From positions 1 to 64,000 of the forward strand of contig DASPIL010000036.1 of assembly GCA_035629175.1 (NCBI GenBank): a stretch of 64,000 nt of DNA, in the 5' to 3' direction. Shown here one piece after another: positions 162-21,810 of this stretch (the first letter of the stretch is position 1; every line of letters starts with the position of its first letter). Under the pieces are notes generated by a model, which saw nothing but the letters and a program-made list of their open reading frames with translations, ran no database searches and was not told the origin of the DNA. Source of the DNA: Verrucomicrobiia bacterium. GTDB taxonomy: Bacteria; Verrucomicrobiota; Verrucomicrobiia; Limisphaerales; DASXHY01. The translations under genes and the position numbers were made by a program.

Positions 162-3100
162 CTACTCCAGGATCCGCAGTCGGAAGAACCCGTGCAGGCT
201 TTCGTCAATGCCGTTGGTGAACGAGAGCGGCACTCCCGTGCCAAGAATCGGGGCGCCGATCTCGATCCATTCCTCGTCGCCAAGCGAGTCCTTGTATTCC
301 AACTGATAGGTTTGTCCCGCGAAGGTTTGCCAGCTGAAGCGGTATTCGCCATCGACCGCTGAATGGCCGCCCAAAGGTGGAACCGGCGCCACAACCACCG
401 TGAAGCTTTGCGTGGCCGAAAGGCTGGGAGTTCCGTTGTCGGTGACCACCACCTGAAAAGTGTTCGTCGCTGGCGCTGTGGCGGGGGTCCATGTGAACAC
501 GCCGCTCTGTAATCCAATTTCGGCGTCCGCCGTTCCGCCCAGCAGCGCAAAGGAAAGCGCCTGGGCAGGCAGGTCGCTATCACTCGCGTCGACCGCAAAA
601 CTCAACGAGTAGCCCAGTGTCACAAGCCGGCTGGGAATGAACTGCAGCACAGGGGTTGAATTCGGAACCACATTCGGCAGCCGCGGCGTCGGCGCCGGCA
701 TGAAATATATCGAAGCTGCGCCGTCCGGGAAGCGTCCCTGGCTGACATCGGTTTGCTGGCTGCCGAATACCACCACATCGATTGGCGTGCCATCGGGCGC
801 GAACAGCCCCAGCGCCTCGCCACCCTTGCCGAGCGCGAAGTCGGCATGCAGGTCAACGCGATTGGTGGAATTCTGCGTTGACTCGTTGTCCGCCCAAACC
901 AGCAGTCTCCCTCCTGCGGGAACGATGTAGTGACCGTTATTGGGAATTTGGAATTGCAGCGGATTGTTGAGGTTGTCGGTAAGGTAATAGCCGCCGAGGT
1001 TCACCGCAGCTTCACCAGGATTGTAGATTTCGAACCAATCCTCGTACTGGCCGTCTGCCGGATCCGGCAGCGTAATGGAGTTATCGGCGAGCCACTCGTT
1101 GATGAACACGGAAAGGGGTGCCGACGCCCCGTTGTTCGTGACGCCTGGTGTTGGATAGAACAGGGCGCGGCGGTAGAACGGCTGCGCGTCCGGGACATCG
1201 CCGAAGCTCCAGTTGGCTGTAAGGTTTGTGTAATTCAGGTAATCGACGACCTGCACCTGATTGCTGATGGCCCGGCTGAGAATGACGCGGCCGCTTCGTG
1301 CCGGCAACTGGAACGCGGCGTGCCATTGGTTCAGCGCGTTCTGGTTCACCTGGTTGTCGCACCAGACGAGGTTGAACCCGCCGGCGCCGAGCGTTGCGTT
1401 TGCCGGAAACACCCAGCGTGTGAGGTTGGTGTGGGAATCGGAAAGATAATAGCCCGCGAGGCTGAAGTTCGTCGGGGCGCTATGATGAATTTCGACCCAC
1501 GAATCGCGCTGGCTGAAGTTATCCACTGGCCCCGTGAGATTCTCTGGCTGCACTTCATTGAGCCACACGGGAGGAAAGGGAGCGAGAGTCCGCGCGATAA
1601 CATTCGGCACGCCGGGTGAAGCGGCGGCCTGCGCCAGGCTCACAATATTGGTGTATTCCGCCTCCAGCTTCACACCGAACACCACATCCGTGCTGTCGGG
1701 CGCGGCTTGATGAACCTCGGCCGCGATATAGTTCATGCCAGGAACAAGCAACGAAGCTGGCAGCGTGAGAATGGTGGGCGCAGTGGCATCGCCGCTCCCT
1801 GGCGTGCCTGAAGCCAGCGTTGAATTGATGACCGTGCCTGGGTTCATCCGGACGCGCGGATTCACTTCGCCGCCATTTATATAAAGCACCATGCCATCAT
1901 CAACGTAGGCGGAAACGCGAAGGCGATACCCCTGCAGATTATTCGTCAGGTTGAACGCGGTGCGAAAGTAATACGCATGTCCAGATCCCACGTTGTTGAT
2001 CGGGAGTCGAGGGTCTCTCAACACGGTGCGGGTGAGCGGGCCAATCACCGCGTTGTTCTCGAAGGCCAGCAATCCGCCGCCCGCGGGCCAGTTGGCGTCG
2101 TTGTATCCGTTGGCTGTCCAGTTGACGCCATCGAGGTTGGACACCTGCATGAAGCGCCATGCATTGGTGTAATCGAGGAAAACGATTGAAGCGGGTGGTT
2201 GCGAAACAAAGTTGGAGTGACCGACGCTCCAGTTTCCAACCCGGCTGTTGTCCTGTGCAGTGTCCAGCAACTGCAATGAGAATCCATTGGTAACAATCGG
2301 CCAGGGCGGGACATTCTCGAACCTCACCCGATTCACGACCACCCAGTTCGTGCCGAGGTCCGGACGTTGCAGCGTGAGGGTTTCGCCGTCGTGATCGAGA
2401 ACACCGCTGTATTGGTCAAACGCAATGGCATTTGGACCGTACGTCTGATTAAACACCGCCAGGTTCTCAGCAAGCACAACAAACCCGCGGGGTGGAATGA
2501 AGGACCCAGGGGGAAACGTATAACCGAGACCATTCACGTTCCAACCTGAGACATCGAATGCGAAATTGGAATGTGTGTTGAACAGTTCCACGTAAGCCGC
2601 ACCCGGCGCTGCCGGGTCATGCATGATCTCGTTGAACACGACCTTGCCAGAGGGATCAACATCGACACCTGTATAATTCACCACCTTCGATCCGACAGCG
2701 GTCGGCAGCGGTTCGCCTTTCCGGTTCGAAGCCGAGATGCTGAGCGCATTGGTCCCGCTCAAAAGTGGCATGACGACGCTCCAATTCGATATTGTCGTCC
2801 AGCGGATCGGATAGGCGATGCCATTGATATTGATGAACTCAGCGGCGAGCGGCGCCGTACCCATGAGCGTCATCATGTTACTTCCCGCGATCACCTGGTA
2901 GGCGGGGCCGGCAACGCTGAACGCCACGTTCGGCAGAATCGATTGAAGGTAACTGCGGCGCTGGTTGATGAAATTCTTGATGAACTGCGGCGACGTCATC
3001 GGGATGCCATTCTGTTGGAACGCGGCATAACGCTGATCCAGCGCAACATCAGCGACACCCGGCATCAACGGGCCATCGACGGCTTCCTGAAATCCGCGGA

Positions 3101-6100
3101 GGTATTCGCGATGGAAGACCGGGTAGTTCAGAATCATCTGCCGCAATGAGGTGTCGAAGATTGTGTAGATGCTGTCGTTCGGCGCGTTGCCGCCGGCGCC
3201 GAGCGCAATCTCAATGTCCCACATCATCAGCCGCCAGCCCGCGTTGTCGGGTTTGTAGGCGAACATATTCTTGCCTCGGGCATAGGCGTAGCTGTCCCAG
3301 CTGCCGCAGATGTGATGCGTGATGACGGGCCGCAGGAAGTTGGGAACATCCATCCAGGTGCGAACCAGCGCCTCGTAATTTGCCGCACCCGTGTTGTTTA
3401 CGGCTGCAACGAGGTTCGTGAAGGGCGTCCAGTCGTTCGGATTTGCAGTGGCTCGCGGACGCCAGTTCCAACGATAGAATTTCGTATCGATCTCCCCGTT
3501 GCTTTTGTTCACGCGGTTGAGCGTTGCGTAGATGCTGCCCTGGTCCTGGCCGTTGTTCGCAAATTCAAACCAGCTCTCAATCTTCCGCAATTGCCCCGCT
3601 TCGTCGTCTGGAAAATATTCCCCGATCAACTCGCTGTTCGGCTGCTGAGTATCGTCGTAAATGGTCCCGCGCCGCTGTCCGTTGACGAACATATGCACGT
3701 GGCGGCGATGGTTGTAGGGCTGCCCCAGCTTGCGTGCGATCCAGTTCCCTGTGATGTCCACCTGTCCCGAGTCGTCATTGAAGAAGAAATTGCCCGAGAC
3801 CACATCGTAGGCCGTGAGCACGAACGGCTCGGATCCAAGGAACCGCTGATCGGGCGGAAAGTTGACTTCGTAATCGCAAGCAAAACCAAGCGGGCTGTCG
3901 TACTGGGGCGAATGAAACGGGCTGCCGCTGTACATCGTGTCGACATTGTAAACCGCACGGATGTTGTTGTAGACGAAGGTCGCATCGATCGTGTCGTTTG
4001 CGTTTTTCTCGCGGGATGCCCAGAACGCAATGTTGTTCGAGGTCACCCACAAACGATATGCACCGAAACTGCCGGTTTGCACTGCCTCCCCCCAGCGCAC
4101 GTGACATTCACGTTCCGGGTAACCTGCGGGAAACAGGCTTGATGCGCCGGCGCCGTCAGCAGCCGATATGTGGAACGCGGCCAGCCGGTTCGCTGGCTGC
4201 CCTGGGATGGTTGCTGAATAGAGACCATCTCCCGCCACCGCGTCTCCGCCCATTCCGTTGTCACGCATCTGCACGGTTGCAACTGTCGCACTTGGATCGA
4301 GACGGTAATTCAGCGAAACGGAACCGATGGTGTCGGGATCAATGACGCGTGCGGAAACCACGACCGCCTGGTTCAGCGCCGGCAGGACTGGGGAATGGCT
4401 GACGTCGAAAAGCGCCGGAGCGGCATTGGCAACGCGCCGTGAATTCACAAGGCCGGGCGTGCCGAGATTTGCGGGAATATCGAGGCGGCGCGACACCTCC
4501 ATCCAATTGCCGCGCACACGCAAAAGGACATATGGCGAACCTTTGAGCCACCGAACCTGCGCCCGAATAGTGCCCGTGTTCGCTCCGCCGACAGACATGG
4601 TTTGTGACAGCCCGCGCAGCACCTTGTTCGGGCCAGTGTCCCCACGGGCGGCTGAAATCAAATGCAGTCCGCTGCTCCCGCCGATTCCCGTGCCCGCTTC
4701 AATGAACGACTTCCGTGTGACACCGCCGAAGATCCATCCAAGGCCGCTGTTAAAATCGCCATTCGAAATCAGGTTCGCCCCGCCGTTGTTCCGAACTTCA
4801 ACGTTGTCAACGAGGGCTTCGCCATGGTCCTGCAAAAACATTTCGAAACGATTTGCCACCCCATAATCTGAGGGGCCTTCATGGGAGAACGATTGGCCGT
4901 TCTGGAGTACGTCCGTGACATCAATGCTGGTCCAGGTCGATTTTGTGCTTTCCTCGCTGTCCGCCCAATTGTAGGCGAGCCTGTTGTCAGCGCGGGGATC
5001 GATGAGTTCCAGAGAACTGCCGCCGCCGTCGCTCCACCTGCCCCACCGTCCGCCGTCCGCATAAGTGACTTCGTCCATCGTGATCTGGATGATGGTTGTG
5101 ACTCCATCAGCCACCACGTCATCGGGCATGACGAGTGCGATCCGTTCGCCGCTGTTGCGGAGCGATCCGCTGTAATTTCCAAAGGTGTTCGCCGCGTGGA
5201 GCTGCGGATATTTTGCCATCAAATGGGCTGCGTTTTTGGCAACAACCACGAACCCGCCAGCAACAATCACGGCGCCCAGGGGAAAGGTGAATTGGATGCC
5301 ATCCTGGATTTGCCAGCCGGCAAGCGAAACCGGAGCACCGCTGCGATTGTGCAACTCCAGATACTCGTCGTCGTCGAGTTCCGAAATCGGGTGATACATG
5401 ATTTCATTGATTCGCACCGAACTGATGTTCGGAGCGGCGTTGGGCGTGCCAACGGTCTGACCTGCAAGCCGCTGGAAATAGGGGCTGCCGTCAGGATGCC
5501 GGCCGGTCGGCACTCCATTTTCCTGGCCGCCGAACGTCACCGCATCCAGGACCCGCGTGCGATTGGAGTTCACGAGAAGGATCGTTTCGCCCGCCGACGA
5601 CAAGGAGAAGCCGAGCTGCGCATCCGTGAAAGCAAGAAATCCTCCGGCTGGAATCATGGTGCCGTTTGGGATGCGGAACTTGTTCGTGTCCACATCGTCG
5701 CTTAACCACAGCCCGGAAACATTCACGGGCTGGGTGGACGTATTGAAAAGCTCGATGTAATCACGCTGCGGCAGATCCGTGTGCGCGAGGTATTCATTGA
5801 TGACGATGGCCCCGGCAGGATCAGCAACGGCGACATCCAGGCTGCCTGGCGATCCGCCGATCACGGCGCTTGCAGACCACGCGCGCGGATCGTTCTCGCC
5901 ATAACTCGGGTGACTCAGGACGAGCGAATGTCCCGCGCCGTCGGCTGCGGCCGGCCAGGGAGAGGTGCTGCTGTAGTTGATTTCGAGGAGCCGCCCGCCG
6001 AGTTCGTTCAGCAGGATAATCTCACCCCCGGCGTTGTTCAATCGTTGCGAAAAGGGCCCCAGGCAACTCACGCCATAAAAACTCTGGGCCGCTGCCGGAT

Positions 6101-6422
6101 TGCGGGCGATTACGAGGATCTGGCCCGGCGTGATCTGCGTGCCAGCGGGAAATGAATACGAAATTTCACCCTCGATTTTGTGTCCTGTCAGGTCTTCCGT
6201 GATGACCCCTGTGTTCCGCAATTCGATAAACTCGAGATCGTCGCCCCCTGTCCAGGACACGTGCGGATGATACATGATTTCGGTGATCACGAGTGCGGTC
6301 CTGCGGCTGGAGGGGCCAGGCGGCTCCGCGGCGCGCACGGCCTCGCGCGGCAACATGAATGCGGCAACGAGCGCGATGAGATGAAGGAAGGACCATGGCC
6401 TGGAACCGCTGAATCGGAACAT
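162..6422 (-). CDS. Giant secreted lamin-tail-domain / CotH-kinase protein
   Basis: This codes for about 2,087 residues. I chose the ATG at 6422 over one 36 bases upstream because it places a signal peptide (MFRFSG, then a hydrophobic stretch ending LPREAVRA) at the N terminus. About six lamin-tail-like repeats can be seen, each opening with a (I/V)NEIMxxP-type strand followed by (D/E)xxELxN and GWxL-type motifs. They begin near residues 45, 205, 335, 1260, 1615 and 1775. A CotH-kinase-like domain lies at about 775-1160, with SWDSYAYARGKNMF and MMWDIEIALG as candidate catalytic and metal-binding segments. An Ig/cadherin-like segment and a C-terminal YQLEYKDSL-type domain common in verrucomicrobial surface proteins follow. 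CotH proteins are known as atypical protein kinases in spore coats; here the protein is probably exported and cell-surface. Substrate unknown. Confidence 0.85.
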   Translation of the reverse strand: MFRFSGSRPWSFLHLIALVAAFMLPREAVRAAEPPGPSSRRTALVITEIMYHPHVSWTGGDDLEFIELRNTGVITEDLTGHKIEGEISYSFPAGTQITPGQILVIARNPAAAQSFYGVSCLGPFSQRLNNAGGEIILLNELGGRLLEINYSSTSPWPAAADGAGHSLVLSHPSYGENDPRAWSASAVIGGSPGSLDVAVADPAGAIVINEYLAHTDLPQRDYIELFNTSTQPVNVSGLWLSDDVDTNKFRIPNGTMIPAGGFLAFTDAQLGFSLSSAGETILLVNSNRTRVLDAVTFGGQENGVPTGRHPDGSPYFQRLAGQTVGTPNAAPNISSVRINEIMYHPISELDDDEYLELHNRSGAPVSLAGWQIQDGIQFTFPLGAVIVAGGFVVVAKNAAHLMAKYPQLHAANTFGNYSGSLRNSGERIALVMPDDVVADGVTTIIQITMDEVTYADGGRWGRWSDGGGSSLELIDPRADNRLAYNWADSEESTKSTWTSIDVTDVLQNGQSFSHEGPSDYGVANRFEMFLQDHGEALVDNVEVRNNGGANLISNGDFNSGLGWIFGGVTRKSFIEAGTGIGGSSGLHLISAARGDTGPNKVLRGLSQTMSVGGANTGTIRAQVRWLKGSPYVLLRVRGNWMEVSRRLDIPANLGTPGLVNSRRVANAAPALFDVSHSPVLPALNQAVVVSARVIDPDTIGSVSLNYRLDPSATVATVQMRDNGMGGDAVAGDGLYSATIPGQPANRLAAFHISAADGAGASSLFPAGYPERECHVRWGEAVQTGSFGAYRLWVTSNNIAFWASREKNANDTIDATFVYNNIRAVYNVDTMYSGSPFHSPQYDSPLGFACDYEVNFPPDQRFLGSEPFVLTAYDVVSGNFFFNDDSGQVDITGNWIARKLGQPYNHRRHVHMFVNGQRRGTIYDDTQQPNSELIGEYFPDDEAGQLRKIESWFEFANNGQDQGSIYATLNRVNKSNGEIDTKFYRWNWRPRATANPNDWTPFTNLVAAVNNTGAANYEALVRTWMDVPNFLRPVITHHICGSWDSYAYARGKNMFAYKPDNAGWRLMMWDIEIALGAGGNAPNDSIYTIFDTSLRQMILNYPVFHREYLRGFQEAVDGPLMPGVADVALDQRYAAFQQNGIPMTSPQFIKNFINQRRSYLQSILPNVAFSVAGPAYQVIAGSNMMTLMGTAPLAAEFININGIAYPIRWTTISNWSVVMPLLSGTNALSISASNRKGEPLPTAVGSKVVNYTGVDVDPSGKVVFNEIMHDPAAPGAAYVELFNTHSNFAFDVSGWNVNGLGYTFPPGSFIPPRGFVVLAENLAVFNQTYGPNAIAFDQYSGVLDHDGETLTLQRPDLGTNWVVVNRVRFENVPPWPIVTNGFSLQLLDTAQDNSRVGNWSVGHSNFVSQPPASIVFLDYTNAWRFMQVSNLDGVNWTANGYNDANWPAGGGLLAFENNAVIGPLTRTVLRDPRLPINNVGSGHAYYFRTAFNLTNNLQGYRLRVSAYVDDGMVLYINGGEVNPRVRMNPGTVINSTLASGTPGSGDATAPTILTLPASLLVPGMNYIAAEVHQAAPDSTDVVFGVKLEAEYTNIVSLAQAAASPGVPNVIARTLAPFPPVWLNEVQPENLTGPVDNFSQRDSWVEIHHSAPTNFSLAGYYLSDSHTNLTRWVFPANATLGAGGFNLVWCDNQVNQNALNQWHAAFQLPARSGRVILSRAISNQVQVVDYLNYTNLTANWSFGDVPDAQPFYRRALFYPTPGVTNNGASAPLSVFINEWLADNSITLPDPADGQYEDWFEIYNPGEAAVNLGGYYLTDNLNNPLQFQIPNNGHYIVPAGGRLLVWADNESTQNSTNRVDLHADFALGKGGEALGLFAPDGTPIDVVVFGSQQTDVSQGRFPDGAASIYFMPAPTPRLPNVVPNSTPVLQFIPSRLVTLGYSLSFAVDASDSDLPAQALSFALLGGTADAEIGLQSGVFTWTPATAPATNTFQVVVTDNGTPSLSATQSFTVVVAPVPPLGGHSAVDGEYRFSWQTFAGQTYQLEYKDSLGDEEWIEIGAPILGTGVPLSFTNGIDESLHGFFRLRILE

Positions 6423-6613
6423 CGAGACCCCGGATTGAGGAACGCTTGGCAGATACATCTTGAAACGCTGTGACTGTATCTGGCGCGAGGGTCACTGAAA
6501 ACCTCTAATCCTTGGCTCGAACCAAAAAACTTTTCTTTCTGATTGACCCAAGCGGGGCAACTATGACGAGATGTTAGGCCGCTAGTTGTTGAGGCCGGTT
6601 AGCTTTACTCAGA

Positions 6614-9890: not shown

Positions 9891-10496
9891 TCACAGCGCG
9901 CGGCGGCGTCCCCGCGCTTCGATGCGTCGCCGCAGTTGCACAACTCCGCCGCCACCCAGGGCGCCGAGAACAATGCCAGCCAGCGCTCCAATGCCTGTGT
10001 TGCGCGGCTTGTTCGGGCGTACCCGCACAGGCTCTCTTCGATCCACAATGCGGAACGAAACTTTGCGACCGGCTTGCGCCGTTCGGTCTGACGCATCCAT
10101 GCAGGCTTGCGCCCACATCTCACAAAGTTCCGCAGCTTCCGAGGCACGGTGTCCATAAGCTTGCAGTTCGATCAAAGACTCGTCGCGTGTTGCAGATGAA
10201 ACCCTCAGCCGCAAATCGTGCGCGCTCATTCGTTCGCGGCTTGTGCCATTGGCGAGTTCCGCAAGGCGTGTCATGACTGAATCCGACGTTGTGAACTCCA
10301 AAGCGAGTGCGGCATTGGTGGACGGATCTCCCCCGCCGCCCAGCCAGCTCAATAGAATGCGGGTGCTGTAGGTGACAGGCATCGCGTAGCTGATCAACAC
10401 GCTCACCGCGATCGAGAGGAAGAAGATCGCAAAAAAGACCCGCAGGAATACGGGCAGCTTGGGTGAGATTTCAATCAGTTGCGTTTCGTTCTTCAT
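9891..10496 (-). CDS. Wzz-like polysaccharide chain-length protein (short)
   Basis: This codes for 201 residues. A membrane segment lies at about residues 17-40 and another near the C terminus (about 167-186, IGALAGIVLGALGGGGVV), flanking a periplasmic region. A PNKPRNTGIG motif precedes the second helix, the proline-rich signature seen before TM2 in Wzz/polysaccharide co-polymerase proteins. It lacks the long coiled coil of its neighbour and any cytoplasmic kinase domain. Its ATG overlaps the stop of the upstream gene as ATGA at 10493-10496, so the two are probably translationally coupled. It is the last gene of the cysC operon. The likely role is helping set the length of, or export, an extracellular polysaccharide. 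Confidence 0.7.
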   Translation of the reverse strand: MKNETQLIEISPKLPVFLRVFFAIFFLSIAVSVLISYAMPVTYSTRILLSWLGGGGDPSTNAALALEFTTSDSVMTRLAELANGTSRERMSAHDLRLRVSSATRDESLIELQAYGHRASEAAELCEMWAQACMDASDRTAQAGRKVSFRIVDRREPVRVRPNKPRNTGIGALAGIVLGALGGGGVVQLRRRIEARGRRRAL

Positions 10497-11371
10497 GCGG
10501 ATCCCCGCGGCCGCGCCGCAGTATTTTCCCGCATGCGGGATCGGCGAATCAATATTCCAGCAATTCCGCCGATGGAGCCGAGAACGGTGCCCACGACAAT
10601 TCCCAAGGCGAGGCTCTGTCGTTTTGCTGAAGGCAGCCGGCGGGTGCCCGCGGCTGCTCGATCGAGGATCACCGCCTGCATCGTATTATCGACGCGAGAG
10701 TTCTCCGTCGCATTCGCCAGCTTGCGATCCAGGTCCGCCAATTCCTCCCGCATTTCCCCGAGTGTTTGCGTCTGCGCCTGTAACTGCTCTTCTGAACCTT
10801 CCTGAAGCCTGAGGCGTTGGAGTTCCACTTCCGCATTGTGAATATTCAGCGCGACCTCCGTCCGTTGCGCCTCCAATTGCACGATGGGTTCGGACAACTG
10901 CTGCATCACGCGTTTGAGCAGGTTCCGCCTGTAAGACTCAGCAATGGCGTTTGCCACATCAGCCGCCTGCGCTGAATTCTCTTCGCTCACTTCAATCTCA
11001 ACAATCGTTGAATTTCGAACAGGACGCAGGCTCGTCCGTTCACGCAATAATGCCACCGCGTCATTGGTGGACAGCGCAGCAGCACTCCCAGCGGCGCGCC
11101 ATGCTTGATCCAATGCCAATTGTTCCACGACATCCTGCAGGACGGAATCGGAACGCATGACTTCGATTTCTTTGTGGAACCGTTCCGCGTCGAAACCCTT
11201 TTCCATCCACTTGAAATTCAACATCAGCCGGGTCGTGCTGCGAAAAGTGGTGGCATTGTGCGCTGGAAGCAGCGCGGCGATCGCAACTGTGGCGACCAAA
11301 ACGCAGACAAAGATCACCGCGAACAACGTCCCGTCGCCCAGCGGGCTCTCCATTCCCGCGGCCGGTTTCAT
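10493..11371 (-). CDS. Wzz-like polysaccharide co-polymerase with coiled coil
   Basis: The start at 11371 (MKPAAGM) gives 292 residues and overlaps the cysC stop as ATGA; an ATG 51 bases upstream is open but would overlap cysC more deeply. TM1 lies at about residues 16-37 ([20 protein letters not shown]). A Wzz-like beta segment follows (FRSTTRLML), then a heptad-rich helical region at about 150-230 ([27 protein letters not shown]), a proline segment (RRLPSAKRQ), and TM2 near 258-280 with glycine-rich packing. This is the usual polysaccharide co-polymerase plan without a fused tyrosine kinase. Together with the shorter downstream paralogue it resembles two-component Wzz systems. Confidence 0.75.
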
Positions 11372-11973
11372 GCCAGCCCGATGCGTTTGAGAATCGTGGC
11401 GACGCACTCGGAAACCGAACACTGTTCCGTGTTCAACTCCAGTTCAGGATGGAACGGCGCCTCGTACGGAGCGGAGATGCCGGTAAAGTCCTTGATCTTC
11501 CCGGTGCGCGCCTTCACATAGAGGCCCTTGGGATCGCGCTTCTCACAAACCGTCAGCGGCGTGTCCAGGTAAACTTCAATAAAGCGGCCCTCGGGAACAA
11601 TGTTGCGGGCCAGTTCACGATCGGAACGGTAGGGTGAAATAAACGCGGTGATGCAGATCATTCCCGCATCGGCGAACAGCTTCGACACCTCCCCAATCCT
11701 GCGGATGTTTTCTTTGCGGTCATCTGGCGAAAAACCGAGATCCGAGCAAAGGCCATGGCGGACGTTGTCGCCGTCAAGGACGTAGGCATTCTTGCCGCGC
11801 TTGAACAATTCGCGCTCGAGTTCCGTCGCGAGGGTGGATTTCCCGGAGCCGCTCAGCCCCGTGAACCAGACGACGCAGCCTGAGTGTCCCATTCGCTGTT
11901 CCCGTTCCGCGTGCGTAACTTTTCCCGGAGACCATGTGATATTCTCGCTTTTATGAGTCAGATGACCAGCCAT
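11368..11973 (-). CDS. cysC: Adenylylsulfate (APS) kinase
   Basis: This enzyme phosphorylates APS to PAPS, the sulfate donor for sulfotransferases and for PAPS reductase. With the ATG at 11973 the protein has 201 residues, matching the family's usual length; an ATG at 12069 would add an unsupported leader. The Walker A motif GLSGSGKST is at residues 39-47, followed by DGDNVRHGL (APS binding), FISPYRSDR, and KGLYVKAR in the lid region. No sulfate adenylyltransferase or reductase genes adjoin it. It instead leads an operon with two Wzz-like genes through ATGA overlaps, which suggests that PAPS is made for polysaccharide sulfation rather than cysteine synthesis. That last point is inference. Confidence 0.93.
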
Positions 11974-12074
11974 GCGAAAGTGAATCGCGCCCGGCCGAGC
12001 GTTGTCCAGCACGAACATTGCAAAAGCCGAGTTCATCCTTGGCATTATACACAGCCGCAGGTAATACACTGAAC

Positions 12075-14345
12075 ATGAGTCGTTTTCGAAAGCTGCTGGC
12101 GGTGAGCTTTCGCGCCAAGGTGCTGGTGCCGGTCATCGCAGTGATGGTTCTGTTACTGGCGACCATGGCTGCCGTGATTAACGATCGCATCACGGATCAA
12201 TTCGAACGCGATGCGCGCCGAACGCTGGCCGCTGCCGAGGACAGTTTCCAGCAGATTCAACGCAGCCGCACCCGCAGCCTGCTGATCCGTTTTCGGGACC
12301 TCAAAAATGAACCCCGCTTTCGCGAGGCCTTCCAAAGTGGCGACCCCTCGCGGGTTCGCAACCAGCTGCCCGCCCTGATGGGTGCCGTTGGTGAAGACGT
12401 GGACATCGTCGTGTTTTCCGGACCGGAGGAACTGATCGCCAGCGCGAAGCGGGATCCGTTGATGTCGATCGCAAATTTTGAATCGGCAAGCGAAAGCCTG
12501 ATCGCACAGGCTTTGCGGGCAGCGAGTCCTTCACGCGGCGAAGCGACCGCGGACACGGTTTTTGTGGACGGGTTGCTTTACGACGTCGTGTCGTTCCCTG
12601 TCTTCGGCAGCAACGGAAGACTTGTGGGCGCGCTCACGCTGGGATCGCAAATCAACCGGACCGTGCTTGAGGAGTTCAGCCGCGCCACCCACAGCCGCAT
12701 CGTTTTGCTTGGGAATGAACGGGTGATCGTTTCGACACTTCCCGGACCTGAATCCAGTCTCGATCTGGTTCGGCTGTTTCGCGACGTGACTGCCGAAGCA
12801 CAGAAGAAGGGATCTGGATTTCGAATCCGGAAACATGTGTTGAACGGCGAACATCATTTTTGCGCTGCAGGCCGTTTCGAGACTCCCAGGAACGATGGCG
12901 ACCTCGGCTATCTCCTGCTTTATTCCTACGAGCAGCCGCTGCAGGATCTCGCCGCAACCCAGCGGAATCTGATTGTCATGAGCGGCGTGGCGATAGTCCT
13001 CGGGTCGCTGGTGGTCTGCTTCCTGGTGGGCAAGGTTACAAAACCACTGCGCGAACTGCGGGATAGCGCCGAGGCCGTTGGACGAGGCGACTTCTCGCGC
13101 CGGGTTCCCGTCCGCTCGCAGGATGAATGCGGCGAACTTGCGCGCGTGTTCAACCAGATGACGGAAAATCTGAAGACGTCGCGCGAGCAGCTGGAAACGA
13201 CAGTGGCAACCCTGAAAAGCACGCAGGCGCAGCTGATTCAGAGCGAGAAGCTTTCGGGCATCGGCCAGTTTATCGCTGGAGTGGCGCATGAGTTGAACAA
13301 CCCCCTGACTTCCGTCCTTGGGTTTTCCGAGTTGATGAAGCACGCCGTTGTCGCGCCGAAGGACAAGCATTACCTGGATGTGTTGAACAAGAGCGCGCTG
13401 CGGTGCCAGAAAATTGTCCAGGCTCTGCTCAGCTTTGCCCGGCGGCAATCCCCCGAACGAAAACCAACCCTGGTTAACGAGCTCATCGAAGCCTCTGTGG
13501 ACCTGCTGCAATACCAGCTGCGCAAAGGCAGCGTGAAGGTCATCACGAGGTTTGATGGAGAGCTGCCAGAGATTTTGGTGGATCCACACCAGATGCAGCA
13601 GGTCTTCGTCAACCTTCTCAACAACGCACGACAGGCAATCGAAGCCAGCCAGACCGAGGGGTGGATTCGGATCAGGACAGAAACGGATTCGCGACGAGTT
13701 CGCATTATTTTTCAGGACAATGGACCCGGCATCTCTCCTGAGAATCTAGCCCGGATCTTCGATCCCTTCTTCACCACGAAGGGAGTCGGGGAAGGCACTG
13801 GGCTGGGACTAAGCCTCTGTTACGGGATTGTGAAGGAGCACGGCGGCGTCATCACGGCGAACAGCCGGCCAGGCGAAGGAGCCACATTTTCGATCGAGCT
13901 GCCGCTCACAGAACGTCCAGCCCAGGATGGGGCGGCGGCGGCGCGGCGCGCCGAGATGCCGGCGGCGCGACTCGGGCGCGGCAAGCGCATCCTCGTTGTG
14001 GACGATGAGGAACCGATCCGCGTTCTATTGCGCGAATCCCTGACGCCCGAGGGATACGAAGTGGATGTTGCGGCGGACGGTGAAAGCGGACTGCGCCAGC
14101 TGAGCGGGAAGCATTACGACCTAATGCTGTGCGACTGGAAGATGCCGGGCTTGAACGGCGAGCAGGTTTACGAACGTATCCGCGCCATCGATCCCGATTT
14201 CTGCCGGCGAATCATCTTCATTACAGGCGACATCGTGAGCGAGCAAACCCGGCGATTCCTCGATGAGCAGCATCGCATCTGCCTTTCAAAGCCATTCAGC
14301 CTCTCCGAGATTCACGCAGCCCTGAGACGGGTGATGTCCAATTGA
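12075..14345 (+). CDS. Membrane hybrid histidine kinase with receiver domain
   Basis: This codes for 756 residues from the ATG at 12075 (MSRFRKLL), chosen because TM1 follows directly ([20 protein letters not shown]). The order is TM1, a periplasmic Cache-like sensor (about 45-295), TM2 (about 300-323, [17 protein letters not shown]), HAMP (about 325-375), HisKA with phospho-acceptor His about 405 in VAHELNNPL, HATPase_c (DNGPGI, then [12 protein letters not shown]), and a C-terminal receiver with acidic pair DDEE near 642 and phospho-Asp about 687 in LCDWKMPG. No DNA-binding domain is fused and no response regulator gene adjoins, so output may go through a phosphorelay or the attached receiver. 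It is divergent from cysC (101 bases between starts) and lies 286 bases before the VTC gene, which may be its regulatory target. Confidence 0.92.
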
Positions 14346-14631
14346 TCCCAGGAAATTTTGGAGGATCCAGGCGTGGTTCAACACATTCGTTTTTCACGCC
14401 GCCTTCGATATCTTGAATGCCGGTTCTTCTGCGGGACTCGCCTCGACAAACCGTTTCCTGTCCTTCATGATGCCCCCCGGTCGCACGCGTGGACAACGAC
14501 TGAAAGCTGCTGGCTGCAATGTTCCGAAGTAACGGCATACAAACTCATCGAAGTTCAGTGACGGATGTCTCTGGGTTGTTCCTTGGCAAACACCCTGTTC
14601 TCCCGCAACGCTCAGCCTGATCGGATCTGCC
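14346..14631. other. Intergenic stretch with no recognised feature
   Basis: These 286 bases separate the hybrid kinase from the VTC gene. Short open frames exist on both strands (67 and 79 codons), but neither has recognisable motifs or a good ribosome binding site. I see no hairpin with a T-run and no convincing -35/-10 pair. The gap is long enough to hold the promoter of the VTC-DUF4956-HlyD operon. Confidence 0.5.
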
Positions 14632-15489
14632 ATGCCTCAGGACCATCGACTTCAAGCCCAGCGATTCGAACTGAAATACCTGGTGCCTGAAGAAATGGTT
14701 GCGGGCATCCGCGACTTTGTCCGCTGCTACCTCGAGCTGGACGACTTCTCAGCGGGGCGCGCCAACAACTCGTATGATATCCACAGTGTTTACCTGGATT
14801 CGGCGGACCTGCATACGTGCCAGGCGACGCGGAATGGCGACAAGAACCGGTTCAAGCTCAGGCTGCGCTACTACAATGACGACCCGCAGACGCCAGTGTT
14901 CTTCGAGATCAAGCAGCGCGTTGACAATGCGATTCTGAAGCAGCGCTGTCCGGTGCGCCGTGAAGCGGTTCCGCTTCTGATGTCAGGACAACTGCCGGAT
15001 CCCGAACATCTTTTTTCCGAGGAACCACGGCACCTGGTTGCGCTGCAGCGTTTCCAATATTTGCAATATCAATTGGGCGCTGTTCCACGGATGCATAACA
15101 ATTACCTCCGGGAAGCATGGGTTCCGGTTTCAGGAAATGCAGTTCGGGTGACTTTTGACCGGAACATCCGCATAGAACCGTATTTCGCCTACCAGGCCCC
15201 AGTCGCGATGGCTCGTCCCCGGCGGATTTACGAGGATGTGGTGGTTCTCGAGTTGAAATTCACAGGCCGGTTTCCAAACTGGTTGCGCGAGCTTGCAGAC
15301 TCTTTCAATCTCTCACGCGGAACGGCGTCCAAATATTGCGGCGGCGTTGATGTCCTTGGCGATTTCCATTTCCGGCCGCGTGTCGAAGACTTGATCCAAG
15401 CCGGAACCGCCAGGCAGGAACATTATGTCGGCGCCTCATCTGGAACAACGATGACCGAACTCGGACAAACCGCCGTTGCGCGGGTGTGA
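14632..15489 (+). CDS. VTC-domain protein (polyphosphate-polymerase-like)
   Basis: This codes for 285 residues with the tunnel motifs of the VTC/triphosphate-tunnel superfamily. These are FELKYLV (E13, K15), RFKLRLRYY (R73 to R79), FFEIKQR (E92, K94), VTFDRNIR (D176, R177, R180) and LELKF (E207, K209). In yeast Vtc4 this fold makes polyphosphate from ATP. Bacterial homologues of this size are often annotated as polyphosphate polymerase domain proteins, but their activity is largely inferred. No signal peptide or membrane helix is visible, so it is probably cytoplasmic and may work against the DUF4956 membrane protein that follows after 17 bases. The ATG at 14632 gives the usual family start (a short leader, then RFELKY). 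Confidence 0.9.
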   Translation: MPQDHRLQAQRFELKYLVPEEMVAGIRDFVRCYLELDDFSAGRANNSYDIHSVYLDSADLHTCQATRNGDKNRFKLRLRYYNDDPQTPVFFEIKQRVDNAILKQRCPVRREAVPLLMSGQLPDPEHLFSEEPRHLVALQRFQYLQYQLGAVPRMHNNYLREAWVPVSGNAVRVTFDRNIRIEPYFAYQAPVAMARPRRIYEDVVVLELKFTGRFPNWLRELADSFNLSRGTASKYCGGVDVLGDFHFRPRVEDLIQAGTARQEHYVGASSGTTMTELGQTAVARV

Positions 15490-15506
15490 AATGTGGATGA
15501 CAAACT

Positions 15507-16193
15507 ATGACTGACTGGCTCTTTCGTGGTGATTACGGAATCGCGCCCACCAATTTTGCCGCCCTGTTTCTGTCGCTGTTGCTGGCGTTCGTCTGCGGCC
15601 ATGCTGTGGCCTGGGCCTATATCTGGACCCACACAGGTCTGTCTTATTCGCGTTCCTATGTCAGCACGTTAATTCTGATCCCGGTGATCGTTGCGCTCGT
15701 CATGCTCGTGCTGGCCAACAACATCGTCATTGCATTTGGGTTGATGGCGATTTTCGCGATGGTCCGTTTCCGAAGCGTTTTGCGCGACACCCTCGACACC
15801 ACCTACGTGCTGGCCGTGATTGTCATTGGGCTCGCCTGCGGAACCTTGAAATACAGTTCGGCCATTATCGGCTGTCTCATGACCGTCGGCCTAATGTTCT
15901 ATTTCTGGCTCACAGGCTTTGGCACGCGGCAGCGATACGATCTGATCTTGAACGTCCAATGGGCGCGGCCTCCGTCCGAACTTCCCGAACTGCTGCGGCT
16001 GCTCCATCGGCACAGCCGGTCCGTTCAATGCGCCAGCCAGCGCACCAGTGAAGCGTTTCCCGGCATGGATGTTTCGTATCGATTGCTGCTCCGCAATCCC
16101 GCTGCGACGCATCATTTGATGGAAGAACTGAAGGCTATTCCAGGCGTGACGCGAGCCTCAAGCCTGGGCGCGAGCGATGAATCCGAACTATGA
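15507..16193 (+). CDS. DUF4956 membrane protein
   Basis: This codes for 228 residues. About four hydrophobic segments lie in the first 140 residues (from FAALFLSLLLAFVCGHAVA through YVLAVIVIGLACGT and IIGCLMTVGLMFYFWL). The conserved cytoplasmic loop MAIFAMVRFRSVLRDTLDTT is the hallmark of DUF4956. A soluble C-terminal domain of about 80 residues follows. From memory, DUF4956 genes repeatedly neighbour VTC-domain genes in many phyla, and this one lies 17 bases after one. Its stop overlaps the next start as ATGA (16190-16193). The function is unknown; a membrane channel or anchor for the VTC protein is a reasonable inference. Confidence 0.9.
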   Translation: MTDWLFRGDYGIAPTNFAALFLSLLLAFVCGHAVAWAYIWTHTGLSYSRSYVSTLILIPVIVALVMLVLANNIVIAFGLMAIFAMVRFRSVLRDTLDTTYVLAVIVIGLACGTLKYSSAIIGCLMTVGLMFYFWLTGFGTRQRYDLILNVQWARPPSELPELLRLLHRHSRSVQCASQRTSEAFPGMDVSYRLLLRNPAATHHLMEELKAIPGVTRASSLGASDESEL

Positions 16194-17272
16194 AGCTCGA
16201 GCCACTCAAGCCGGTTCCCACACCGCTTCCCCAGCGCCTTCGCGATCTGCGCATGCGGTTCATTCCACCGATTGTCTGCATCGGGGCGATGTTGGTGATT
16301 GGCCTGGTTTGGAAAGACACCGTCAGCCCGCCCACCATGGTCGGCCAGGCAGAACCGATCGTTTCCAACATCAGCTCGTATCAACCCGGCATTCTCGCCG
16401 AACTGACAGTGCGGCGGTTCGAGCGGGTCCGCGCGGGTCAGGTGATTGGCAAAGTGCTCGTCGCGCACCCCGAACTTCTAAGCGCCTCACTCGACGTCAT
16501 CCGCTCGGAAATTGAGGAGCTTCAGACCGATCCCCAGAGGCTCTACACCGAGCGACGGTACGCCGTGGACTTCGCGCAACTGCGGCAGAACTGGATGCGC
16601 CATCGGGTCGACCTCGCCAGTGCCAAGGCCAACCTGCAGTTTGCCGAGGCCGAATTATTGCGGCACGAAAAATTGCTGGCGGCCAAAATGGTTTCGCAAA
16701 CCGAATACGATCTGGCGAAATCCAATCGCGACTCCCTTGTGGAAGAGGTGAACGAGCTCACGCAATTGGTGAACGACGGCCAAATTGCATTCGACTCCAT
16801 GCAGGGCACCAACTGGGCGGGCAATGCGACAGAGTCCGGGGTCGCCGCCTGGCAGGAGGCACGTCTTCGACTCGCCGCGGCCGAGTTGCAACCGATCATC
16901 CTCACAGCACCGATCGACGGGATCATCACGGTTGTTTCAAACCACCCTGGCGAATCGGTATCTGCCGGAACCACCATCGTAACGATTGCCAGTCTCAGCC
17001 CGGTCCGAATCGTGGGCTATTTGAAAACACCTTTCAGCGCAGACCCACAGCCTGGCGCGCGCGTTGCAGTTCGCACACGCGGGATTCGCCGGCAGGTGGC
17101 GGAAACGATCATTACCGAGGTCGGCACGCAGTTGGAACTGCTCCCGATGCACATGCAGAGCGCGCTGCGATTTGCCAATCTTGAGATCGGACTCCCGGTG
17201 GAAATCGAGCTGCCTCCCGAGCTGAAACTTCGGGCCGGGGAACTGGTCGACATCAGCATTATCACGAATTAA
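16190..17272 (+). CDS. HlyD-type membrane-fusion/adaptor protein
   Basis: This codes for 360 residues. There is a single N-terminal membrane helix (about 24-43, FIPPIVCIGAMLVIGLVW), then a biotinyl-lipoyl half motif (YQPGILAELTVRRFERVRAG), a long helical hairpin (about 95-190, with LRHEKLLAAKMVSQTEYDLA), the second lipoyl half (LTAPIDGIITVVSNHPGESV) and a beta-barrel region. These are features of HlyD/EmrA adaptors that bridge inner-membrane exporters to the outer membrane. No ABC, MFS or RND transporter lies in the operon: the only membrane partner is DUF4956, translationally coupled through ATGA. This suggests that the DUF4956-VTC pair itself might be the exporter or synthase it serves. Confidence 0.85.
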   Translation: MKLEPLKPVPTPLPQRLRDLRMRFIPPIVCIGAMLVIGLVWKDTVSPPTMVGQAEPIVSNISSYQPGILAELTVRRFERVRAGQVIGKVLVAHPELLSASLDVIRSEIEELQTDPQRLYTERRYAVDFAQLRQNWMRHRVDLASAKANLQFAEAELLRHEKLLAAKMVSQTEYDLAKSNRDSLVEEVNELTQLVNDGQIAFDSMQGTNWAGNATESGVAAWQEARLRLAAAELQPIILTAPIDGIITVVSNHPGESVSAGTTIVTIASLSPVRIVGYLKTPFSADPQPGARVAVRTRGIRRQVAETIITEVGTQLELLPMHMQSALRFANLEIGLPVEIELPPELKLRAGELVDISIITN

Positions 17273-17330: not shown

Positions 17331-18398
17331 ATGCCTTGTCCGTCTGAACCGACGCCAACGCGCGGCACGTTGCTGAACCCGGTCAACCGATTTGAGCAGA
17401 TCGCGATGGAGCGGGATGAGAACTGGAATCCGGATGAAGATCCGCTTCCTCAGACGCGGTTCCTTCGGGACAAATCGCAGACGATCATTGCTTACAACGA
17501 CAGTCCCGACATCGGCTTCGAAGCCAGCATCAATCCTTATCGAGGATGCGAGCATGGCTGCATTTATTGCTACGCGCGGCCGTTCCATGAATACCTGGGT
17601 TTCTCGTCGGGCATCGATTTCGAAACGCGCATCATGGTGAAGGAAGACGCGCCGGAACTCCTTCGCAAGGAATTATCCTCCCGCAAATGGAAGCCGCAGG
17701 TGATCGCAATGAGTGGCGTCACGGACTGCTACCAACCGGTCGAGCGCAAGTTGAGGCTCACCCGTCGCTGCTTGGAAGTCCTTGCCGAATTTCGCAACCC
17801 CGCAGGCCTCATCACAAAAAATGCACTGGTCACCCGCGACATCGATGTTTTGTCCGAACTCGCGCGGCACCACGCGACTGCGGTGTTTATTTCGCTCACG
17901 ACCTTGCAACCCGGAATTCGAAAGGTGATGGAGCCGCGGACCTCGCCCCCCGCCGCGCGTCTGGATGCAATTCGTCAATTGTCCCAGGCAGGCATTCCGG
18001 TCGGTGTGATGCTGGCGCCGATGGTTCCCGGGCTTACTGATTGCGAGATCCCTTCGCTGATTCAGGCGGCGGTTGAGGCTGGAGCCAAATTCGCCGGATA
18101 TGTTGCCTTGCGCCTGCCCCATGCCGTGGCCCCCATGTTTGAAAACTGGCTGCAGGAGCATTTCCCCGATCGGAAAGAAAAGGTGCTGAATCAGGTTCGA
18201 TCAATGCGCGGTGGCAAGCTCTATCAATCACACTGGGGCGAGCGGATGCGCGGGGAAGGCATCATTGCGCAACAGATGGAGAAATTGTTCGAGGTCGCCT
18301 GTCGCAGATACGGAATCGCAGGTGGGCGTCCGCAGTTGTCCACAGCGGCGTTTCGTCGCATTGAAGGCGGGCAGGCTGAACTCAACCTTTCCCTTTGA
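17331..18398 (+). CDS. PA0069-type radical SAM protein
   Basis: This codes for 355 residues. The iron-sulfur motif CEHGCIYC places the cluster ligands at C73, C77 and C80 (CX3CX2C), within the INPYRGCEHGC context of the PA0069/SplB-related radical SAM family. Further family segments are GVTDCYQP, LITKNALVTRD, SLTTL and APMVPGLTD. The reaction is not established; these proteins resemble spore photoproduct lyase but lack its proven role. It is probably monocistronic: it begins 58 bases after the HlyD gene, and the next gene converges on it with a 17-base gap. Confidence 0.9.
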   Translation: MPCPSEPTPTRGTLLNPVNRFEQIAMERDENWNPDEDPLPQTRFLRDKSQTIIAYNDSPDIGFEASINPYRGCEHGCIYCYARPFHEYLGFSSGIDFETRIMVKEDAPELLRKELSSRKWKPQVIAMSGVTDCYQPVERKLRLTRRCLEVLAEFRNPAGLITKNALVTRDIDVLSELARHHATAVFISLTTLQPGIRKVMEPRTSPPAARLDAIRQLSQAGIPVGVMLAPMVPGLTDCEIPSLIQAAVEAGAKFAGYVALRLPHAVAPMFENWLQEHFPDRKEKVLNQVRSMRGGKLYQSHWGERMRGEGIIAQQMEKLFEVACRRYGIAGGRPQLSTAAFRRIEGGQAELNLSL

Positions 18399-18415: not shown

Positions 18416-20776
18416 TCAGCCTTTGCTTGCTTCGTTCTTGGCTGCCAGCAAGGAAGTGTCGCCCGTCATACGCGTTGTGTCTGACGGGCCCGCCGCGGGA
18501 ACCTGCGGGTGTTCTGCCGTTCGCCATGGGACTTCAAAGATTCGAACGGCATTTCGGATCCCCTTCACTTTTTCCGACGGCAGAGAAATGCACGTTGCTG
18601 CCAGGGCCGGGTCGTCCCGCCGGAGGCGCTCAAATGTGGCGCCACTGATCAAAATGCGTCCGCGTCCCGACAAGCTTTCCAAGCGGCTGGCGAGATTCAC
18701 CTCCCGCCCAAACACCGTGTAGTTGGAGATATGCGCTTCTGAACCCATCAACCCGACCGTGGCAATTCCAGTATTGATGCCGCTGCCGAGGGTAAGGACT
18801 GGCAAGAGAGTGAGGGCCGGCTGTCCTGCGGCCGCTCGAATGGCGTTCTCCGACTCTCGCTGCTGGTTTTCAATCTGCCGCCGCTGGTTCAATTCCGACA
18901 GGCATCTCTGCGCTTCAATAGCTGCTTTCACGCATGCGCACGCGTGCGACGGGTTCGGTGTAGGCGCTCCCCAAAAGGCCATGACACAGTCGCCAATATA
19001 CTTGTCCAGAGTGCCTTCATGCTTCTTGACGATGTCGGCGACGAGCGCCAGATAGGTGTTTACCGTGGCGAGCGTCTCACGCGCTTGTTCATCGTAGTAT
19101 TTTTCCAGTTCAGTCCCGGCCAGCCCAGCCGCCGCCGCGTAATTCTCAGCGCGCTCCTGGTGGGCATCGGTAAACTCAGTGAATCCACGTATGTCAGCGA
19201 ACAGCACTGTGACTTCCCTGCGAGCGCCCCCCAACGCCCAGTCCTTTCTGTCCAGCAACTCGTGCACGATGTTCGGCGATACGATCCGTGAAAAGATTGA
19301 TTTAACGCGTCGCTGTTCAGCCTGTTCAAACATGACTCGAAACGTCACCAACGAGACGTGACTCAGGAGCAACCCCCCTGCAACCGGCATCACGACGGGC
19401 AACCAAAGACGCTGGTCAATGAAAAGGATCCAGGAGATCGCCACGTACGCGACGATCATCAACACGATGCACGATGAGGCGATGAGAATGCGGCGCGTCC
19501 ATGTTACCCAGGCCGAAGCGGCGCCGAGCAGAATAATGATCGCGAGATCGACAGGGGTCGACGTTCGCTGAATGAACCGGCCCGTGAGAACCGAATTCGC
19601 AACGTTCCAATGGGCGCTGGGAAGAAACGTGTCCTTTTCGAGAGGCGTGGCGCCTCGATCGCTGAGATCGTTGCCGATGGCTGTGGATCCGACCAGGACA
19701 AGTTTGTCCGCCCAGGGACTCGGAAGATTCGTTTCGCCCCTGGCACGAGCGCGTTCCTGGATCAGCAGAGTCTCGATCGGTTGCTTGAAAAGGTATGGAT
19801 CCTTGAGCCTTACAGCCCAATCAATCGGGAAGCAGCCGTCTTCATCAACAAACAGGACCCGTTTGTCTCCCGCATCGTTTCGAAGGACAATTCTCCCGTG
19901 GCGGAGATCGACCTCAGCCTCTGCCAGGTTCAAATTGAGCTGACGTGCTGCGAGGACAATTCCCATGCTCCAGATGCGTTCTACGGTGAAGGGGCGGCTC
20001 GTTCGCGAGGTTCCTTCCGGCAGGGATTCCCCTACAAAGTCAGCGAGGTCAAACTCTCCCTTCAGGTTCAAGGGAATGCGGATCGCTTCGTGCGGATCGC
20101 GCGGCAGCACAATTTCGTTGGAACGGATTTGAGCGCGCCTAAGGTCCACTCCAAACTCTGGATCCGCTTCCACCTGCCTAAACAGAGAATGCCAATTGGT
20201 TCGAACATGAAATGCATTGGCGCGGCGCAGCACTCCGTCTGGATCCTTGGTCATGTCGGTCGAAATGTCGCCAAGGGCCAGAGCGTTCGTCGAAAACAGA
20301 TCGGGTGGCGTCAGGCCTTTGGCGTCAGCGAGCACGACGTTTCCCGCGTTCCGAAGTTGAAGGGCAAAATATTGATCAGAATCCAGGAGGGTGCCGTCAG
20401 GCATTTGCACCTGCGACGAAAAATGGTCCTCCCTCAGCTCTGCAAATATGACGTCGAAGGCGACCGCCTTTGCGTTCTGAGCCGCCAACTCCCGGACCAG
20501 CCGCCCATACACCTGCCGCGGCCAATACAGACCATAACGATATCCCAAGGTTCTGTTCGTGCGGACAAAATCGATGCTGCGGTCATCGATGTAGATAAAG
20601 CCCAGGTTCGTGGCGACCGGAGGTGAGAATCGGGCGGCATCGCGAACGCGATGATCGAAGGTCATGCGCTCGATGCGCTCGAGAAAGTCCAGTTCGAGCA
20701 CATATAGGACGCAGACAACCACCACTGCAGAGACTGCAATCAGCAGCGGCGCCGGCTTGGCGGCCTTAAGCTTCAC
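18416..20776 (-). CDS. CHASE2-domain adenylate cyclase (class III)
   Basis: This codes for 786 residues: TM1 at about 10-28, an extracytoplasmic CHASE2 domain at about 30-390, three clustered helices at about 405-480, then a class III cyclase domain at about 510-750. Metal-binding Asp residues sit in LFADIRGFTEF (about 523) and YIGDCVMAFWG (about 593). Purine specificity is set by Lys in LDKYIGD and Thr in NYTVFG, a pattern of adenylate rather than guanylate cyclases, and the transition-state Asn and Arg are in VNLASRLE. Two insertions enlarge the catalytic domain: an Ala-rich segment after the first metal motif and a Gln/Glu/Arg-rich one before LTLGSGINTG. It follows the FecR gene on the same strand but beyond a strong terminator. 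Confidence 0.92.
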   Translation of the reverse strand: MKLKAAKPAPLLIAVSAVVVVCVLYVLELDFLERIERMTFDHRVRDAARFSPPVATNLGFIYIDDRSIDFVRTNRTLGYRYGLYWPRQVYGRLVRELAAQNAKAVAFDVIFAELREDHFSSQVQMPDGTLLDSDQYFALQLRNAGNVVLADAKGLTPPDLFSTNALALGDISTDMTKDPDGVLRRANAFHVRTNWHSLFRQVEADPEFGVDLRRAQIRSNEIVLPRDPHEAIRIPLNLKGEFDLADFVGESLPEGTSRTSRPFTVERIWSMGIVLAARQLNLNLAEAEVDLRHGRIVLRNDAGDKRVLFVDEDGCFPIDWAVRLKDPYLFKQPIETLLIQERARARGETNLPSPWADKLVLVGSTAIGNDLSDRGATPLEKDTFLPSAHWNVANSVLTGRFIQRTSTPVDLAIIILLGAASAWVTWTRRILIASSCIVLMIVAYVAISWILFIDQRLWLPVVMPVAGGLLLSHVSLVTFRVMFEQAEQRRVKSIFSRIVSPNIVHELLDRKDWALGGARREVTVLFADIRGFTEFTDAHQERAENYAAAAGLAGTELEKYYDEQARETLATVNTYLALVADIVKKHEGTLDKYIGDCVMAFWGAPTPNPSHACACVKAAIEAQRCLSELNQRRQIENQQRESENAIRAAAGQPALTLLPVLTLGSGINTGIATVGLMGSEAHISNYTVFGREVNLASRLESLSGRGRILISGATFERLRRDDPALAATCISLPSEKVKGIRNAVRIFEVPWRTAEHPQVPAAGPSDTTRMTGDTSLLAAKNEASKG

Positions 20777-21683: not shown

Positions 21684-21723
21684 AGACCTTTTTCTTGCAA
21701 TAGCGCTTTTACAGTCTGCGGCA

Positions 21724-21751
21724 ATCGTATGGATATGCCTTTTGTTGTCAA
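21724..21751 (-). promoter_or_regulatory. Sigma-70-type promoter for the FecR gene
   Basis: Read on the minus strand, TTGACA (21746-21751) and TACGAT (21724-21729) are separated by 16 bases. The -35 is a perfect consensus match and the -10 matches at four of six positions. The predicted start, near 21717, leaves a leader of about 34 bases before the ATG at 21683. An AAGG lies shortly before the ATG. Confidence 0.6.
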
Positions 21752-21810
21752 CCGAATATTCCCGACTAAACGGATAATTCGTCCACCCGGGTCGAAGCTT
21801 GAACAATTCC

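Follow-up and report, generated by a model that had tools for sequence, protein, structure and literature searches.

Three consecutive plus-strand genes encoding a VTC (triphosphate-tunnel) polymerase domain protein, a DUF4956 membrane protein and a HlyD/EmrA-type periplasmic adaptor were analyzed in a 64,000-nucleotide (nt) stretch of contig DASPIL010000036.1 (positions 1 to 64,000; GenBank assembly GCA_035629175.1, a Verrucomicrobiia bacterium of the order Limisphaerales), which is referred to here as the window. The VTC gene (14632..15489; product of 285 amino acids, aa) is followed after a 17-nt gap by the DUF4956 gene (15507..16193; 228 aa), which is joined through an ATGA overlap to the adaptor gene (16190..17272; 360 aa), and re-examination of the three open reading frames returned the same coordinates, gap and overlap as the initial annotation of this DNA. 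VTC and DUF4956 are each encoded by a single gene in this genome. The order VTC-DUF4956-HlyD recurs in relatives far beyond chance, and the triad is thus a conserved module and operon. The initial annotation had also described the adaptor as lacking a transporter, which holds among the genes annotated around it in the window: no ABC, MFS or RND transporter was found beside the adaptor among annotated window neighbors, or among the Pfam-scanned neighbor genes of relatives. A promoter and terminator scan returned two promoter-like sites and one terminator-like site, and shuffled sequences yield as many.

Proteins of the triad

The VTC protein is soluble and consists of the polymerase domain without an SPX or transmembrane (TM) domain (PF09359, E 1.3e-36; 126.8 bits against a cut-off of 23). 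No TM segment was found by hydropathy, and neither an SPX domain nor a Vtc1-type TM domain was encountered, the Pfam scan of the polymerase giving VTC only and the DUF4956 members matching DUF4956/MgtC. A profile built from 40 triad VTC proteins matched yeast Vtc4 (3g3q) at E 1.5e-17, and in all 40 proteins the residues R11, E13, K15, R73, K75, R77, R79, E92, K94, K103, R105, Y158, R160, R172, D176, E207, K209 and K234 are invariant. The earlier claim of an intact tunnel is therefore upheld for E13, K15, R73, K75, R77, R79 and D176, though not for R177, which falls outside the invariant columns. By alignment R77/R79 are equivalent to R264/R266 of Vtc4 and E207 to E426, and substitutions at these Vtc4 residues have been used to inactivate the yeast enzyme (PMC9911596).

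The DUF4956 protein (PF16316, E 1.5e-11; 44.7 bits against a cut-off of 30.6) was modeled by AlphaFold2, with a predicted local distance difference test score (pLDDT) of 85, as five TM helices followed by a C-terminal ACT/ferredoxin-like domain (residues 144-223; 15936..16175, plus strand), the latter aligning to ACT/S6-like folds over approximately 80 residues with a VIA-align Z of about 10. Several comparisons support a distant, MgtC-like homology. The C-terminal domain of MgtC (2lqj) is within the Foldseek top ten, although weakly (E 6.5e-3), and when DUF4956 was compared by hhalign with the MgtC proteins of this genome and of relatives, the match extended through both domains (200 columns; probability 97.5%, E 7.5e-12), as opposed to a probability of 0.1% for the reversed control. 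The Pfam MgtC model furthermore matched 31 of 54 DUF4956 members at E<=1 (best 4e-6), and in one genome (G291) it independently matched the gene directly downstream of VTC. DUF4956 nevertheless stays below the cut-off of the MgtC family proper (PF02308; 10.4 against 31.4 bits). An MgtC-plus-ACT architecture has already been published for the streptococcal DUF4956 homologue SIR_1592 (PMC12345266). Within an RFRxxxRDxxD motif (residues 87-97; 15765..15797, plus strand), which probably forms a cytoplasmic loop between TM3 and TM4, all 54 sequences have R87 and R89, and application of the positive-inside rule to the AlphaFold2 model would place both arginines at the cytoplasmic side. Vtc1 was not among the PDB profile matches of the DUF4956 alignment, and the Foldseek list was filled by matches to the ACT-like domain, so that the TM part was barely probed.

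The third protein carries all features of a HlyD/MFP adaptor, namely an N-terminal TM helix, a lipoyl domain, an alpha-hairpin and a beta-barrel (HlyD_3, 1.7e-6; RND_mfp TIGR01730, 4.6e-20). Its profile matched EmrA (4tko) at E 1e-28, while the AlphaFold2 model (pLDDT 92.5) aligned to EmrA 8zar with a VIA-align Z of 14. At the hairpin tip (turn 165-169) lies the string R158-x3-L162-x6-S169 (16661..16696, plus strand), corresponding exactly to RxxxLxxxxxxS (RLS), the motif through which adaptor proteins engage TolC (PMC3391258), and the three columns are conserved in 43/45 (R), 40/45 (L) and 31/45 (S) sequences.

Recurrence and outer-membrane partners

Recurrence was assessed in 289 sampled Verrucomicrobiota genomes, from which 68 loci were taken and their neighbors mapped with profiles built in this analysis. 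VTC and DUF4956 were each found in 57 of these genomes, with both present in 56, and DUF4956 lies directly after VTC for 55 of 66 VTC genes and directly upstream of it for four more. HlyD directly follows 31 of the 55 pairs, the intergenic distances of these 31 triads being operon-type (nearly all between -20 and +36 nt). Within the order to which the window belongs, 22 of 29 VTC-DUF4956 pairs carry HlyD and the triads mostly stand alone. The proposal that the three genes form a module is thus borne out in the order, in the phylum and in metagenome-assembled genomes (MAGs) labeled as Balneolales; HlyD accompanies the majority of pairs at both the order and the phylum level. A profile scan of genome contigs recovered 332 DUF4956 relatives, and among the best 80 loci examined VTC is present in 77, HlyD in 71 and both in 69, including MAGs labeled Verrucomicrobia, Pedosphaera, Limisphaera, Balneolales and, in one case, Omnitrophota. 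Several MAGs titled Akkermansia muciniphila (L216, L227, L229 and similar) contain triads close to those of Limisphaerales/Pedosphaera, and their organism label looks doubtful. The closest relative (L159/L204) is without HlyD, and tblastn revealed no frameshifted copy there. VTC genes without a DUF4956 neighbor are also seen in the order (L164, L166, L169, L174, L177, L180, L191, L195 and L196), that of L196 adjoining genes for a UVR-motif protein and an ATP:guanido phosphotransferase (McsA/McsB-like). As counted from the genome lists, Ppk1 is present in 46 of 57 VTC genomes as compared to 171 of 232 others; VTC was consequently rejected as a replacement of Ppk1, and given this co-occurrence it does not replace storage polyphosphate synthesis.

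Of the 31 phylum triads, 17 have a TolC-type gene directly after HlyD (11 OEP genes and a divergent group of six which hhalign joined to OEP at 98.1%), and on a Hymenobacter plasmid DUF4956 is followed by TolC. In six loci (L065, L069, L074, L076, L079 and L093) the third gene is not HlyD but Porin_O_P, a phosphate-selective porin family, while in further phylum loci this position is taken by CotH-kinase proteins. An adjacent OEP was found in none of the 22 HlyD triads of the window's order; in the window genome OEP genes are located on six other contigs, unlinked to the triad. Neighbors of the OEP or porin type are consistent with an anionic cargo being led through the envelope. In a DUF4956 tree the sequences sort by third partner into separate HlyD, HlyD-OEP, porin (the Porin_O_P-linked proteins) and CotH groups, a pattern that would fit partner-specific adaptation.

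These data bear on two alternatives. Firstly, the adaptor might serve a separate ABC, MFS or RND transporter encoded elsewhere and be merely co-regulated with VTC-DUF4956, as could be argued from the nearest match of its fold, EmrA, which belongs to an MFS pump system, and from the ordinary adaptor divergence of triad HlyD proteins (15-43% identical to the window copy). This is improbable, considering the specific adjacency with coupling overlaps across classes and Balneolales-labeled MAGs, the sorting of the DUF4956 tree by third partner and the TolC-type gene directly after HlyD in 17 loci. Secondly, the triad might function in phosphate or Mg2+ homeostasis, with DUF4956 influencing phosphate uptake or the ATP synthase in the manner of MgtC, VTC buffering cytosolic phosphate in the form of internal polyphosphate and HlyD or porin contributing to uptake or envelope integrity instead of export. 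The MgtC homology of DUF4956 and the Porin_O_P gene in third position agree with this, as does the promotion of phosphate uptake by MgtC through PhoR, as cited within PMC12345266. Nonetheless, TolC-type genes following an adaptor equipped with an RLS motif speak for an outward direction, Ppk1 is already present and secreted CotH proteins are associated with the genes (see below); such a function is accordingly regarded as rather unlikely.

CotH proteins and other neighboring genes

CotH-kinase proteins are known neighbors of VTC-DUF4956 in Gram-positive bacteria (PMC7112168), and they also track the genes studied here. In the phylum sample CotH was found in 54 of 57 VTC genomes as opposed to 21 of 232 others (p 3e-37, uncorrected for genome size or full phylogeny) and, when counted by genus, in 39 of 42 with VTC against 10 of 111 others (p 2e-23). 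Around 50 HlyD triads CotH occurs in 10 loci where 1.9 would be expected from the per-genome CotH density (p 1e-5). In five Balneolales-labeled MAGs the fourth gene, after HlyD, encodes a CotH protein with a type IX secretion system (T9SS) sorting domain, and therefore an extracellular protein. The window itself encodes on the minus strand a secreted 2098-aa protein (162..6458) with a signal-peptide-like N-terminus, a CotH-kinase domain (PF08757, E 4.4e-16) and six lamin-tail (LTD) domains (PF00932), which is a possible partner outside the operon. It is one of eight CotH genes in the genome and its distance of approximately 8 kb from the triad, for which the chance is a few percent, is only suggestive. 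At a further locus (L123), in a genome (G238) where VTC gave no match, CotH adjoins a DUF4956 gene whose product is a very divergent member of the tree.

Directly upstream of the triad a hybrid histidine kinase with dCache_3-HAMP-HisKA-HATPase-receiver architecture is encoded on the same strand, from 12018 (TTG) or 12075 (ATG) to 14345, its end being separated from the VTC start by 286 nt. The initial annotation had suggested that this kinase may control the triad, and the shared strand and this gap would be compatible with a single regulated unit of four genes. Across 68 loci of the phylum, 40 of the order and 80 of the contig scan, however, no close kinase relative was detected next to the triad; synteny in every relative examined thus makes the four-gene unit very improbable, and the kinase was rejected as a member. 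Its suggested role as regulator is likewise not borne out, and because the kinase is not conserved the module is confined to VTC-DUF4956-HlyD.

The remaining flanking genes bear on a third alternative, in which the triad would regulate or alter a surface polysaccharide, with DUF4956 and VTC adjusting phosphate or nucleotide supply or signaling and CotH phosphorylating matrix or glycan-export proteins, a role of the kind that has been suggested for the Pel accessory genes. Wzz-like and O-antigen-ligase-like genes do flank the window triad: two overlapping minus-strand proteins (9891-11422 and 11368-12069), one weakly similar to EpsF/Wzz chain-length determinants, lie beside an adenylylsulfate kinase (CysC), and at 21811-23694 (minus strand) an O-antigen-ligase (Wzy_C) protein with tetratricopeptide repeats overlaps a FecR-domain protein (20844-21827, minus strand). 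The Wzz-like and CysC genes may represent a polysaccharide-linked cluster, which is unconserved beside the triad. A PA0069-family radical SAM protein (17331-18398, plus strand) and a CHASE2-adenylate cyclase (18416-20776, minus strand), located directly downstream of the triad, are ordinary. Wzz-like, CysC, radical SAM and cyclase genes were all rejected as parts of the module since their position next to the triad is not shared by relatives.

Further afield, the pel operons of streptococci, clostridia and bifidobacteria have VTC, DUF4956 and CotH genes next to them (PMC7112168), DUF4956 and CotH mutants of S. intermedius change in Pel level and aggregation (PMC12345266), and glycosyltransferases are found near VTC-DUF4956 in Planococcus and Pseudobutyrivibrio. 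Conversely, the window's own Wzz-like, CysC and other flanking genes are without recurrence, the triads of the order are mostly isolated, and regulation needs no dedicated HlyD/TolC route. A regulatory or polysaccharide-linked role is therefore unlikely on balance, yet it is the main rival explanation, because of the S. intermedius mutant phenotypes and the description of MgtC as a regulator.

A candidate export route and its known counterparts

The explanation that we favor, with a confidence just short of even, is that the triad represents a polymerization-driven envelope export operon for an anionic phosphate polymer. VTC would build an inorganic phosphate chain within its basic tunnel at the cytoplasmic face of the inner membrane, the product most likely being polyphosphate made from ATP. 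DUF4956 would receive this chain via the arginine cluster at its cytoplasmic side and pass it across the inner membrane, a conduit role equivalent to that of the Vtc1/Vtc3/Vtc4 membrane helices in yeast. The HlyD adaptor would dock on the VTC-DUF4956 inner-membrane unit and, with the hairpin tip that bears the RLS motif, on a channel of the TolC type, which for the window triad would be encoded elsewhere in the genome and in many relatives is encoded next door. Outside the cell the polymer may serve surface CotH-kinase proteins or join the matrix. An extended version, in which the triad constitutes a new kind of tripartite exporter with the VTC polymerase and an MgtC-like conduit as its inner-membrane engine, polymerization itself driving polyphosphate through HlyD and a TolC-like channel to the surface for use as phosphate donor or substrate by secreted CotH kinases, to which ATP is not available there, is considerably more speculative and is held to be improbable in this full form.

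Several points weigh against such export. About a quarter of the VTC genes in the window's order are without DUF4956, the window triad has no adjacent gene for an outer-membrane channel, and Salmonella MgtC is described as a regulator rather than as a pore. The RLS string by itself is weak, occurring in about 19% of shuffled sequences, and it is therefore column conservation together with the hairpin-tip position which carries the docking argument. In the literature searched, no biochemical evidence was found of polyphosphate being made or moved by any bacterial VTC-DUF4956 pair. Finally, for S. intermedius neither an aggregation nor a Pel phenotype is reported upon loss of the VTC gene (SIR_1593), as opposed to deletion of DUF4956 (PMC12345266), a difference from which it follows that DUF4956 may act apart from VTC.

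VTC-DUF4956, with or without CotH, is already published as a Pel accessory set. For the HlyD/TolC form, or for polyphosphate export by such genes, no paper was found in the literature searched, most subscription journals lying outside it. A 2025 study reported that it did not find the VTC-DUF4956-CotH trio outside Pel loci (PMC12345266); in contrast, the association is seen here in HlyD loci, as judged without dedicated pel models. Assignment to the Pel accessory set would call for contiguous pelDEADAFG; no pel gene is present among the annotated window genes, which were likewise not searched with such models. An operon that combines a polymerase with an envelope-spanning adaptor and tracks secreted CotH proteins allows extracellular polyphosphate placement and the roles of VTC, DUF4956 and CotH to be tested together.

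Among known systems, the yeast VTC complex (Vtc1/Vtc3/Vtc4; 3g3q, 8i6v, 7ytj), in which cytosolic polyphosphate synthesis is coupled to membrane translocation (PMC9911596), shares with the triad a homologous polymerase domain and the conserved tunnel residues, and by analogy a similar coupling is proposed for the triad. Unlike the yeast complex the triad is without SPX and without Vtc1-type helices, has an MgtC-like DUF4956 as membrane partner and is extended by HlyD, often with a gene of the TolC type as well. The Gram-positive Pel accessory set cotH-PPP(VTC)-DUF4956 (PMC7112168, PMC12345266) displays the same pair and the same tie to CotH, whereas the triad has HlyD, with OEP or porin also found as partners, in third place and occurs in diderm hosts. 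With the MgtC family DUF4956 shares a TM bundle and the C-terminal ACT-like domain, as indicated by a profile match of approximately 200 columns, but it differs from MgtC proper in remaining under the curated cut-off, in forming its own Pfam family and in its genomic partner. Lastly, EmrAB-TolC and HlyBD-TolC have in common with the triad the adaptor fold, the N-terminal TM helix, the RLS motif and, in many loci, a TolC-type partner; where these systems have an ABC, MFS or RND transporter, the triad has VTC-DUF4956.

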